Below are positions 6,732 to 39,195 of a stretch of 62,395 nt of DNA, piece after piece. The notes beneath the pieces are model-generated. The model was not told where the DNA came from, ran no database searches, and saw nothing but the letters and a program-made list of their open reading frames with translations. Origin of the DNA: a virus; the IMG/VR virus record IMGVR_UViG_3300036829_000406, positions 1 to 62,395 of that record; one strand, given 5' to 3'. Made by a program: the position numbers and the translations under genes. Every line of letters starts with the position of its first letter. The first letter of the stretch is position 1.

Positions 6732-7066
6732 TCCTCGCCTGCACCGCCATGACCCTCGTGGCCCTCGGCTGCGGCGCCTACGCCGCCGCCGTCCTGGCCG
6801 GCCGGGAACGGCTCGCCCGCCTGGGCGGAGCCGCCACCATCCGGATCCTCATCACCGTCAGCCTCCTGCTCATCGCCGCCGTCCTGATCGGCCGCACCGC
6901 CCGCCACCCGTTCCGCCACGCCGACTACCTCGCCACCCGGATCTTCCGCCGGATCCCCGGCAGACCGGACGACGGTGACCCGCTCACCCGCGAGGAGACG
7001 GCCACCTTCATCAGCATCTGCCGCGGCTGGAAACTCGCCACGCCCGAAAGGACCCGACACACATGA
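6728..7066 (+). CDS. Small membrane protein
   Basis: 112 residues starting at ATG 6728 (ATGA overlap). Two hydrophobic segments, about residues 2-24 and 37-56, are followed by a charged cytoplasmic-type tail. Membrane location is the only property I can support. Confidence 0.55.
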   Translation: MILACTAMTLVALGCGAYAAAVLAGRERLARLGGAATIRILITVSLLLIAAVLIGRTARHPFRHADYLATRIFRRIPGRPDDGDPLTREETATFISICRGWKLATPERTRHT

Positions 7067-7803
7067 CCACCGACCTCGCCGCCATCACCCTCGCCAAAGG
7101 CGGCCACGGCGAACCCTCAGCCGACTGCGGCAACCCGCAACGCTGCCTGTTCGAGTGGTACAACTGGCTCACCCGCGCCGAGCACACCGACAGCCGGCCG
7201 CCCGGCGTCTCACGGGTCCTGCACACGTTCGGGATGCGGCTCAATGACGTCCTGCCCGATGGCCGCCGCCAGGAGCTGAAGCGCTTCCTGCCGAACGGCA
7301 GCGACCGGCTCGCGGGAACCGCGGACGACGGCAAGGACGAGACCCGCGGCTACATCGCACTTGACTGGCTCATCCGCACCTGGACGCCCGCGTGGCTCGA
7401 CCTGGGCGGCCTGCCCGCCGAAGCGACCGCGCTCCGGGACCTCCGCCGCATCGCTGATCTCGTCGCGGCCCAGACTGCCGGTCCCGTCGTCCGCGAGGCC
7501 GACTCTAAGGCGGCCGCAGCCAGGGACGCAGCCAGGGACGCAGCCAGGGACGCAGCCAGGGCCGCAGCCAGGGCCGCAGCCTGGGCCGCAGCCTGGGACG
7601 CAGCCTGGGCCGCAGCCAGGGCCGCAGCCAGGGACGCAGCCAGGGACGCAGCCAGGGACGCAGCCAGGGACGCAGCCAGGGACGCAGCCAGGGACGCAGC
7701 CAGGGCCGCAGCCAGGGACAAGCTCGCACCGACTGCAGCTGAGCTGCAGACGTCCGCGATCGCACTCTACGACGTTCTCATCACCGGTGAGTGGCCATCG
7801 TGA
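7063..7803 (+). CDS. Protein with Ala-rich tetrapeptide repeats (AAR[D/A])
   Basis: 246 residues. About 150 N-terminal residues form a non-repetitive domain with conserved-looking Cys and Trp (CGNPQRCLFEWYNWL; LDWLIRTWTPAWLDLGG). Residues about 152-219 are 17 tetrapeptides of type AARD/AARA/AAWA encoded by a 12-bp tandem repeat. This should form a long helix with charged and small faces alternating every four residues. A short C-terminal segment follows. Function unknown; the repeat number could vary between isolates. Confidence 0.65.
   Translation: MTTDLAAITLAKGGHGEPSADCGNPQRCLFEWYNWLTRAEHTDSRPPGVSRVLHTFGMRLNDVLPDGRRQELKRFLPNGSDRLAGTADDGKDETRGYIALDWLIRTWTPAWLDLGGLPAEATALRDLRRIADLVAAQTAGPVVREADSKAAAARDAARDAARDAARAAARAAAWAAAWDAAWAAARAAARDAARDAARDAARDAARDAARDAARAAARDKLAPTAAELQTSAIALYDVLITGEWPS
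7516..7719 (+). repeat. 17 tandem copies of a 12-bp repeat
   Basis: Unit GCAGCC(A/T)GGG(A/C)C repeated 17 times without interruption and in frame. Variation is limited to two positions of the unit. All three forward frames and at least two reverse frames stay open through the array, so long reading frames on the other strand here are artefacts of the repeat. Confidence 0.9.
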
Positions 7804-8055: not shown

Positions 8056-8099
8056 GTTCCAGAGTTCAGACATGCCGGCAAGCTGAGGAGACGGGACCG

Positions 8100-8579
8100 T
8101 TGAGCGTGGGCTACAGGCTCTACCGCCAGATCCGCGACCTCGCGCCGCAGAACTGGACGAGCGGGGAACTGGTCGTCGCGTTCATCATCGCCGACTCGGC
8201 CAATGACGGCACCCGCCGTTCATATCTCGACAATCCCGAGCTATGCAGGCGGGCGAGAATGAGCGGCAACGGCGTCAGGAAAGCACTCCAGCGGCTCGCG
8301 GAAAGAGGATTCGAATTCCGCGTCGGCCAGGGCAAGGATAAGAACGGGAAGGAGCTTTACGCCGTTTCGGGAAAGCCCGTCGAATACCAGGTTCCTGACA
8401 TTTTCATGCTCCTGGAAAGAGGCGCGGCGGTCGCTTACGGGCTTGTGGATAACCCTGCCGCAGCCGGTACCACAGTACCGGCTGACGGGAGGTTATCCAC
8501 AGAAACCAGCCGGTACCACAGTACCGGCCAGCCGGTACCACAGTACCGGCTCAGGCGAAGTCATGCTTCTTTCTCTTGA
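8100..8579 (+). CDS. Winged-helix protein, replication initiator candidate
   Basis: 159 residues starting with TTG at 8100 after GAGGAG (GTG 8106 is possible). Residues about 8-90 form a winged helix-turn-helix of the kind in phage and plasmid replication proteins (ELVVAFIIADSAND, LCRRARMSGNGVRKALQRLAERG). The C-terminal 50 residues are encoded by DNA holding two DnaA boxes and three palindromic iterons, so the tail may be dictated by the DNA rather than by protein function. Gene plus iterons resembles a Rep/origin unit. No helicase, primase or polymerase gene is visible in the window, so host machinery would have to be recruited. Confidence 0.65.
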   Translation: MSVGYRLYRQIRDLAPQNWTSGELVVAFIIADSANDGTRRSYLDNPELCRRARMSGNGVRKALQRLAERGFEFRVGQGKDKNGKELYAVSGKPVEYQVPDIFMLLERGAAVAYGLVDNPAAAGTTVPADGRLSTETSRYHSTGQPVPQYRLRRSHASFS

Positions 8580-8610
8580 ACTTAAGACCTACTAAACCAC
8601 CTAACCACCT
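8444..8610. other. Putative replication origin: DnaA boxes, palindromic iterons, AT-richer tract
   Basis: Two perfect E. coli-type DnaA boxes in opposite orientation: TGTGGATAA at 8444-8452 and TTATCCACA at 8493-8501. Three copies of a palindrome with 9-bp arms AGCCGGTAC and GTACCGGCT around CACA lie at 8462-8483, 8508-8529 (last base differs) and 8530-8551. Starts are 46 and 22 bp apart, close to whole helical turns. A stretch clearly AT-richer than the surroundings follows (about 8560-8610), suitable for unwinding. The whole set lies in the 3' end of a winged-helix gene and just beyond it. Confidence 0.7.
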
Positions 8611-8657
8611 GACGAAGCTTGATGGCCACACACCTACAGCTGGAAGGAGCGCACGCG

Positions 8658-9005
8658 ATGGACACGGAACCTGTGGAAAACCCAGATGGCGATTATGAGG
8701 GCTGGGTAATTCTTGAGCTGATGGGCCATCGCAGGCTCACCGGCTATCTGTCGGAGCAGGAAATAGCCGGACGCGCATTCCTGCGGATCGACATCCCAAC
8801 ACAACCGCCCTGTACACAATTCTACGGGGCGGAAGCCGTTTACTGCATTACTCCCACAACCGAGGAAATGGCACGTAATGCAGCGGCGCTGAATCGCGTC
8901 GCGCCCATCCAGCGCTGGGAGCTGCCGCCAGCGCCGCCAGCGACCAGGCCCGGCGATGACGACTACGTCGACGCCGACATCGTCGGCGAGCGCTCGCCGT
9001 TCTAG
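8658..9005 (+). CDS. Conserved phage/plasmid-type protein of unknown function
   Basis: 115 residues from ATG 8658, chosen for its strong GGAAGGAG ribosome site. It has the pattern GWVILELMGHRRLTGYLSE, IAGRAFLRIDIP and YGAEAVYCITP, which I recognise as a widespread phage-borne protein without known function. Immediately follows the origin. Confidence 0.65.
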   Translation: MDTEPVENPDGDYEGWVILELMGHRRLTGYLSEQEIAGRAFLRIDIPTQPPCTQFYGAEAVYCITPTTEEMARNAAALNRVAPIQRWELPPAPPATRPGDDDYVDADIVGERSPF

Positions 9006-9664: not shown

Positions 9665-9978
9665 AAACGACCGAACCCGAACCCGACATCCAGGCCGCCC
9701 CCGACGAGCTCGCCGCCCTCGCCAGAGCCATGCGCCCCGCCTGGGACCACGACATCCTCACCGCCGCACTCCTCGCCGCCAGGCAGGCAGGCTGGACATG
9801 GGACCGCACCCTGGCCGAAACGATCCGGCTGATGCGCTCCCCGGACGGCTCACCGTGGGACCTGCGCCGCGCCGCAGCGGACCCGTTCCATCACGCGACG
9901 GTGCCACCCGGCACGGAGAAGCGCGGCGCGGCGGCCGCCCGGGAGCTGCTCGGCTACGACCACGGTGGCGCGGCGTGA
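9661..9978 (+). CDS. Hypothetical early protein
   Basis: 105 residues from a GTG overlapping the preceding stop. Helical (AARQAGWTWDRTLAETIRLM resembles a short helix-turn-helix, without further support). No recognised family. Confidence 0.5.
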   Translation: MKTTEPEPDIQAAPDELAALARAMRPAWDHDILTAALLAARQAGWTWDRTLAETIRLMRSPDGSPWDLRRAAADPFHHATVPPGTEKRGAAAARELLGYDHGGAA

Positions 9979-18686: not shown

Positions 18687-18788
18687 AAGGTAAATTGGAG
18701 CACAGAGGAAGACGCTGCGCGTGCTTACGACGCTGCTGCGCTGGCCGCGTGGGGCGACTACGCCTTCCTGAACTTCCCTCACGCCTGA
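18687..18788 (+). pseudogene. C-terminal remnant of an AP2-domain (HNH homing-type) protein
   Basis: The frame reads EEDAARAYDAAALAAWGDY then AFLNFPHA and a stop, the unmistakable end of an AP2/ERF-type domain as found in phage HNH endonucleases. The frame is closed upstream by TGA at 18684-18686 and no start or HNH part is present, so only a fragment survives. It is on the strand opposite the surrounding lysis genes and overlaps the amidase-like gene by 10 bases. Confidence 0.6.
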
Positions 18789-19312
18789 CCGAGCCACCGG
18801 TTCTGGATAAGCCACGCAGTCCAGTCGCCGGGGGTCACGTGCGCGTAATCCGCTGGGTCCGGCGCACTGAGGCCGGCCTTGTCGTAGGCGTATGCCGCCA
18901 GGCTGGAGCAGACGATCTCGCCGGGTGGCTTGCCGTCGACCCGTTCGGCCCATACATCCTTCAGGCCGAACGCCATCCCGGCGTCCTCGATGATCGCCTG
19001 CCAGGAGTATGGCGTGCCGAGCATCGCTTCCATGGTTTTGCACACGGCGGCACGCTGGACATCTGTCTTCGGCTGCATCCGGTTGGTGATGGTCCATGGC
19101 GATTCGAGGTAGGCCTTGGCGTCGCGCCAGCCGACGCCGCCGGGACGTCCCTCGATCAGCCACAGGACACCGTGGGCGTCGGTGTGGTGCGCTACTGCGA
19201 CGTGGTTCTGCAAGTTGGCGCGTCCGCGCAGGGCGGCGCCGAGCCGGATCATGGCCGAGGCGAGACCGCCGGTGCGGACCAGGATCACGTCGCCCGGCTG
19301 GACGTCTGTCAT
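18779..19312 (-). CDS. Permuted NlpC/P60 (YiiX-type) papain-like hydrolase
   Basis: 177 residues. It begins with the GDVILVRTGG beta-strand motif typical of this family; candidate catalytic residues are H37 (QNHVAVA), E54 and C135 (EIVCSSLAAYAY), in the His-first, Cys-last order of the circularly permuted class. Such enzymes cleave amide bonds in peptidoglycan or lipids. In the lysis region it may act with the DUF1906 endolysin, although a virion or conversion role cannot be excluded. Confidence 0.6.
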   Translation of the reverse strand: MTDVQPGDVILVRTGGLASAMIRLGAALRGRANLQNHVAVAHHTDAHGVLWLIEGRPGGVGWRDAKAYLESPWTITNRMQPKTDVQRAAVCKTMEAMLGTPYSWQAIIEDAGMAFGLKDVWAERVDGKPPGEIVCSSLAAYAYDKAGLSAPDPADYAHVTPGDWTAWLIQNRWLGQA

Positions 19313-38766: not shown

Positions 38767-39195
38767 TCACCTGGCTGTGGTGATCGTGGTGCCCGGCAGC
38801 ACCGTGATGATCAGCGGGCGGCAGACCGTGCAGCCGTCCACGTCCTTGTGGCAGTGGCCGCCGGGGCACGGCGGCGGGGTGGTGCCCTCGTACAGGGGGT
38901 GGCTGCCGTCGCTCAGCGGGTGGGACGCGTCGGCGATCGCGCCTTTCCACACCCGGCAGACGTCCGGCTCGGGACACGCCGCACCGTCATGGGCGGCCGG
39001 GCAGGCGTTCGCTGCCGCGCCGTGATCATGATCTTCGGTGCAGCACCCTGACCCCGGCGCGCAGCGGACAGCCGCGTCGATGTTCTCGTGAGTGCAGCCG
39101 GGCTGATGCGCCCCGGCGGCGGCAACATAACCCGGCGGGCAGGTGCACTCCAGGAACACCTGCGTCATGCAGCCGGGGCACTGGACTTGGAGCAT
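38767..39195 (-). CDS. Cys/His-rich hypothetical protein
   Basis: 142 residues with more than 14 Cys and many His in CxxC and CxC patterns (CPGCMTQVFLECTCPPG, CCTEDHDHG, CPGGHCHKDVDGCTVC). Several zinc sites or disulfides are likely. It lies in the structural operon and has no family I recognise. Confidence 0.55.
   Translation of the reverse strand: MLQVQCPGCMTQVFLECTCPPGYVAAAGAHQPGCTHENIDAAVRCAPGSGCCTEDHDHGAAANACPAAHDGAACPEPDVCRVWKGAIADASHPLSDGSHPLYEGTTPPPCPGGHCHKDVDGCTVCRPLIITVLPGTTITTAR

Follow-up and report, generated by a model that had tools for sequence, protein, structure and literature searches.

A Candidate Phage Origin Combining Palindromic Iterons and DnaA Boxes

We describe a putative replication origin that occupies the 3′ end of its own initiator gene in the virus record IMGVR_UViG_3300036829_000406, whose whole length of 62,395 base pairs (bp) we call the window (G000; 70% GC). 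Judging from sequence, we consider this locus to be an origin of the lambda-O type in which the initiator is without the helicase-recruiting C-terminus and host DnaA would be used instead, a statement to which, taken as a whole, we assign a probability of about 0.75. Its two components differ in strength: the locus is very probably a replication origin with its initiator, and it is rather likely, with less assurance, that DnaA supplies the missing helicase recruitment. The elements, their conservation at the DNA level, the kinship of the protein family and the opposite occurrence of DnaA boxes and helicase/loader genes are all read directly from the sequences compared. Because it carries genes for a tyrosine integrase, a RecT-like protein, capsid, portal, terminase and tape-measure proteins, the window can be assigned to a temperate tailed phage, and its host is a high-GC bacterium, probably an actinobacterium.

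A first-pass annotation had reported two perfect TTATCCACA boxes around the first of three palindromic iterons, an AT-richer tract after them and a gene with a Rep-like winged helix carrying the origin at its 3′ end, and all of these were found (Table 1). The boxes are present beyond chance: they are the only two exact copies of the motif in the window, windows simulated with its dinucleotide composition hold 0.055 exact copies on average, and a pair within 60 bp appeared in none of 200 simulations. The three iterons share the core GGTAC-CACA-GTACC and lie in and at the end of the initiator gene; they are palindromes, not direct repeats. GC minima calculated over 40, 60 and 130 bp all start at 8557-8558, and the AT-rich tract contains the 60 bp of lowest GC in the window. 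Two geometric details of the annotation stood only in part. Near-whole helical turns apply to the 22-bp start-to-start spacing of the iterons but not to the 46-bp one, and the boxes face each other as far as their TTAT ends are concerned but diverge as directional sites. The annotation had missed the third, weaker box and the full extent of the conserved unit around the origin.

Table 1. Coordinates of the candidate origin and its initiator gene in the window; L003 and L086 are related loci.
Feature	Position	Strand	Remarks
Initiator-origin cassette	8073-8683	+	Conserved block, 90% identical in L003; its end lies shortly beyond the third box
Initiator gene, 159 amino acids (aa)	8100-8579	+	Winged helix at residues 1-110; tail predicted disordered
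Dyad of 58 bp: DnaA box, iteron 1, DnaA box	8444-8501		27-nt arms, 22/27 matching
DnaA box 1, TTATCCACA	8444-8452	-	Kept in L003, missing in L086
Iteron 1, CAGCCGGTAC CACA GTACCGGCTG	8461-8484		Core kept in L003; GGGAC-N4-GTCCC in L086
DnaA box 2, TTATCCACA	8493-8501	+	Kept in L003 and L086
Iteron 2, GCCGGTAC CACA GTACCGGC	8509-8528		Outside the reading frame in L086
Iteron 3, AGCCGGTAC CACA GTACCGGCT	8530-8551		22 bp after iteron 2
AT-rich tract, proposed unwinding element	8557-8616		60-bp GC of 0.417, against 0.70 overall
Third, weaker DnaA-like box, TTTTCCACA	8672-8680	-	Perfect TTGTCCACA (+) nearby in L086

An Initiator of the O-Like Class

The initiator gene starts with TTG, preceded by the ribosome-binding-like sequence GAGGAG, and ATG is found at the same place in L086. 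AlphaFold2 predicts the winged helix with confidence and gives residues 110-159 a predicted local distance difference test (pLDDT) score below 50. In PHROG, the protein matches the O-like phrog_391 with E = 0.016 and the replication initiation protein family phrog_270 with E = 0.091; in Pfam, it matches HTH_36 with E = 0.0017, short of the curated cut-off, and HTH_24, also below cut-off, with no match to a Rep_3/RepA-type initiator. The corresponding PHROG matches of its relatives are stronger (L086 to phrog_270, 1e-5; L064 to phrog_391, 4e-24; L030 to phrog_1032, 1e-28), and L030 in turn matches genes of enterobacterial phages named “DNA replication protein O” and “primosomal protein I”. The more conserved L030 was the sole query to make this link to named O-like phage genes: tblastn matched none of the window, L012, L020 and L062 proteins to named phages, and neither the window nor the L062 protein to plasmids. 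Sequence and fold searches of PDB returned generic winged helix-turn-helix (wHTH) matches only, the best fold matches being MarR-like (E about 0.005), and a BFVD search returned phage HTH proteins and one “replication protein O”. The tree built on the winged helix puts the window protein among O-like initiators. We take these comparisons to indicate a lambda-O-like winged helix, with the kinship carried by the matches of the relatives. A C-terminal helicase-recruiting domain was not found in the window, where the open reading frame (ORF) stops past the iterons after a stretch of low pLDDT; in L086 it stops at 131 aa.

The Tail of the Gene Is Apparently Conserved as DNA

L003, whose protein is 88% identical to that of the window, keeps all origin elements. 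Of the codons that differ between the two, 24 are silent and 11 replacement in the stretch 1-110, against 2 silent and 9 replacement among the last 49 codons (111-159; Fisher p = 0.005), a pattern that argues for conservation of the gene tail as DNA rather than as protein. L086 is more distant (67% identical) and its frame ends just past DnaA box 2; iterons 2 and 3 lie beyond the gene at matching positions, with spacings of 45 and 22 bp. The core GGTAC-N4-GTACC has become GGGAC-N4-GTCCC in all three of its iterons, one of which also lacks the last C of the right arm; such a concerted change is expected of binding sites of one evolving protein. This concerted change lends indirect support to a specific binding of the iterons by the protein. 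Read off the two sequences, the recognition-helix region of L086 differs from that of the window at several residues (Q64E, R65K, A67N), which may matter. The GC minimum of the locus falls at the same place in L003 and L086 as in the window.

The gene right behind the origin encodes an HNH endonuclease in L003 (1808-2386; Pfam) and in L086 (from about 3560; by eye), whereas the window has an unrelated gene there; the switch falls right behind the third DnaA-like box.

DnaA Boxes and Helicase or Loader Genes Occur in Opposition

A protein-blind scan for pairs of GGTAC palindromes recovered homologous wHTH genes, in which the palindromes code for GT-x-VP peptide repeats, and a broader set of loci was then gathered by protein scans; L004 and L061 were dropped as spurious. 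Long initiators (245-323 aa) mostly carry lineage-specific palindromic repeats in the linker after the winged helix, and short ones (109-189 aa) end after the winged helix or linker region. The C-terminus of L064, a sister long protein, matches DnaD-like loader and replisome-organizer families.

We defined the strict DnaA box as TT[AG]TCCACA, whose second form, TTGTCCACA, occurs in relatives and is the high-affinity DnaA box of Streptomyces and Mycobacterium (PMC4285127). Within the first set of loci, strict boxes lay beside eight of nine short initiators and none of six long ones, with no match in the remaining 194,019 bp. The set found by protein scans gave the same pattern over a background of 2 matches in 212,933 bp, and across five whole contigs (322 kb) each strict box was located within about 700 bp of an initiator gene. 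For the comparison with helicase/loader genes we used 41 related loci with iterons, leaving L060 and L089 out of the count, and scored a helicase/loader as present when the record contained a DnaB_C, DnaB_N, IstB/DnaC or AAA_25 match above cut-off. Boxes were found at 13 of the 41 loci, and none of those 13 records carries a helicase/loader; among the 28 box-less loci, 24 do, mostly as the next gene (Fisher p = 1.4e-7, a value inflated by near-copies, as kinship was not corrected for). Where they were scanned, the genes next to boxed initiators encode SSB (L012, L025), HNH (L003) or unknown proteins, and no loaders. The contigs of L012 and L025 seem to derive from genomes of isolates. All four profiles were also negative across the window, and about 50 of its ORFs gave no primase or polymerase match, in agreement with the first-pass annotation, which had seen no phage helicase, primase or polymerase. 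Its suggestion that replication may depend on host DnaA and a small initiator appears well placed. A short protein had been considered to predict boxes; the absence of a helicase/loader took its place, since L110 and L115 are long yet boxed.

Several observations weigh against our interpretation. The 13 boxed loci form three clades among helicase/loader-bearing loci in the winged-helix tree, so that the contrast amounts to three evolutionary changes only; independent pairs give a median p of 0.5, and with so few changes the contrast is too thin for a tree-corrected test. Several records are fragments, which makes the absences of helicase/loader genes soft. L063, L084, L090 and L096 are box-less yet have no detected helicase/loader, boxes and recognised iterons are both missing from the short relatives L060 and L089, and in the boxed L110 and L115, where no helicase or loader was found, the protein reaches 282 aa. 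The family matches of the window protein itself are weak. Finally, the minimum of cumulative GC skew in the window, at 9909, is 1.4 kb away from the origin candidate. GC skew had been proposed as a check and at first looked supportive: the maximum, at 38933, lies almost half a genome from the minimum, and the four-fold-site skew of plus-strand genes switches from -0.37 to +0.07 near 10.5 kb, which would fit an origin here and an antipodal terminus. However, four relatives do not reproduce the pattern, a minimum near the initiator being seen only in G016 (after detrending) while G004 has its skew maximum at the initiator, and GC skew was therefore set aside as unreliable and not counted.

Alternative Explanations

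The locus could be an origin as described in which DnaA is merely an architectural or regulatory helper, aiding melting or coupling replication to host DnaA-ATP, while the helicase comes via an unrecognised phage protein or the initiator's own winged helix. We regard this as improbable but worth keeping in mind, given that the AAA+ domain of DnaA is dispensable at plasmid origins (PMC5043065), that many early genes of the window have no annotation, and that the four box-less loci named above likewise lack a recognised helicase/loader. A helper of this kind fits poorly with the absence of boxes beside all long iteron-bearing initiators except L110 and L115, and with the neighbours of boxed initiators, which do not include loaders where scanned. 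A plasmid-type maintenance replicon, as in a P1-like prophage, rather than a lytic origin would share the DnaA boxes and iterons of oriR-type origins, and a RepA-driven extrachromosomal subset is known among mycobacteriophages (PMC7157519). Nevertheless, the window has a tyrosine integrase, ParA (searched as AAA_31) is absent from it and from four relatives, its iterons are palindromic instead of direct repeats, and there is no Rep_3-type match; we find this explanation very unlikely. Given the integrase and the absence of ParA, an extrachromosomal plasmid-prophage is not indicated.

Two further possibilities were weighed. Since many regulators have wHTH folds, and MarR-like proteins give the best fold matches in PDB, the protein might be a transcription regulator with the palindromes as its operators and the boxes and AT tract as the regulatory region of the downstream gene. 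That arrangement would, however, place the operators at the 3′ end of the regulator's own gene instead of in a promoter; the protein family is one of replication initiators, L003 and the window share the sites but have different genes downstream, and neither the AT minimum nor the DnaA boxes would be accounted for, so that we give this reading little credence. Least plausible of all would be an element acting at the RNA level through transcript hairpins. The palindrome arms are complementary and co-change in L086, but outer stem bases break without compensation (iteron 1 of L003, iteron 2 of L086) while the inner half-sites stay, Rfam matches are below gathering scores only, and again the DnaA boxes find no explanation.

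Relation to Known Origins and Proposed Mechanism

With lambda ori and its O protein, the window shares the broad families of winged-helix initiators (O-like or replisome organizer; PHROGs 391, 270 and 1032), intragenic palindromic iterons and an AT-rich tract directly past the last iteron (PMC5043065, PMC7466680). It differs from lambda in that its protein has no C-terminal domain, no P, DnaC or DnaB gene is found in the window, and DnaA boxes are interleaved with the iterons, lambda initiating via O and P instead of DnaA. The combination of initiator sites, DnaA boxes and an AT-rich element is that of iteron plasmid origins (RK2, P1, F, pSC101), but Rep proteins of the RepE type contain two winged helices (PMC4980987), their genes adjoin the iterons rather than span them, and the window protein has no Rep_3 match. 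The name “plasmid-like” given in the first-pass annotation suits the DnaA boxes, while the lambda-like palindromic iterons, the protein kinship and the intragenic position belong to the lambda-O class. The long O-like initiators of high-GC phages (L020, L058, L064, L091 and others; L058 is 37% identical overall to the window initiator) have a homologous winged helix and iterons in the linker of the gene, but have a C-terminal region in addition, are usually followed by a gene for a DnaC-like loader or a DnaB-like helicase, and lack DnaA boxes. In the RepA-driven mycobacteriophages Miko, Rachaly and Jeeves, initiators with a predicted HTH have an origin proposed beside or inside repA; they differ in a RepA of 320-350 aa, in having parABS instead of an integrase, and in that repeats were not identified there (PMC7157519). 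The window origin is thus a cross between lambda-like protein class, palindromes, position and AT tract, and plasmid-like DnaA boxes. We file it as a variant of the O-like class, because two lambda features (the C-terminal domain and an own loader) and two plasmid features (direct repeats and a Rep_3-type protein) are lacking. A search of the open-access literature found no earlier description of these combined features, which is weak evidence of absence.

We hypothesize that the 159-aa protein, probably as a dimer, would bind each of the three palindromic iterons as lambda O does (PMC5043065), straining the AT-rich tract until it melts. Host DnaA, bound to the two strong boxes around iteron 1 and to the weaker third box, would then recruit host DnaB and its loader, and theta replication would follow infection or excision. 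DnaA would in this way stand in for the C-terminal helicase-recruiting domain and for the DnaB/DnaC-like gene absent here. RK2 offers a functional parallel to a short initiator needing DnaA: in P. putida, the short form TrfA-33 depends on DnaA for helicase loading, while in Pseudomonas the longer TrfA-44 loads the helicase at the RK2 origin (PMC4980987).

It may also be, with chances that we see as even, that high-GC phages have repeatedly swapped two ways of helicase loading at one ancestral O-type origin. One would be a long initiator with its own loader or helicase; the other, a winged-helix-only initiator handing loading to DnaA through boxes embedded among the iterons, in the extreme case as a symmetric DnaA-iteron-DnaA dyad.

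Variation Across the Family and Other Features of the Window

GGTAC...GTACC iteron cores recur in distantly related O-like initiators (L012, L025, L020, L030, L064, L033, L048), reflecting either shared ancestry or a half-site favoured by the winged helix. They are also found in an Acinetobacter phage, with ACCAGTACC...GGTACTGGT. In one clade of long initiators (L090-L100, L103-L113), the initiator stays nearly constant while the gene behind it changes the helicase strategy, encoding a DnaC-like loader in some members and a DnaB-like helicase in others. L110 (3377-3401), and likewise L115, has CTGTGGACAACCCAGTTATCCACAG, in which two strong DnaA boxes form a tight inverted repeat, within a GGGGGGAA-type iteron array.

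Just upstream of the initiator, the ORF at 7063-7803 of the window contains 17 copies of the 12-bp unit CGCAGCCAGGGA (7515-7719, 95% matching), which code for an Ala/Arg-rich repeat. The ORF at 18779-19312 (minus strand) matches a phage family annotated as enoyl-CoA hydratase/carnithine racemase-like (E = 3e-13) and is an unusual cargo adjoining the endolysin region.

Implications

Textbook origins are either of the lambda type, with a phage initiator and a phage loader and no initiator role for DnaA, or of the plasmid type, with Rep and DnaA. The window locus and its relatives join a lambda-type protein and palindromes with plasmid-type DnaA boxes, and the boxes occur where the loader or helicase is missing. 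This pattern provides a testable rule for the gain or loss by phages of their own helicase-loading machinery. It also offers a way to locate phage origins in high-GC genomes, by looking for TT[AG]TCCACA beside a small wHTH gene, and the cassette of about 600 bp is a compact candidate replicon for actinomycete vectors.
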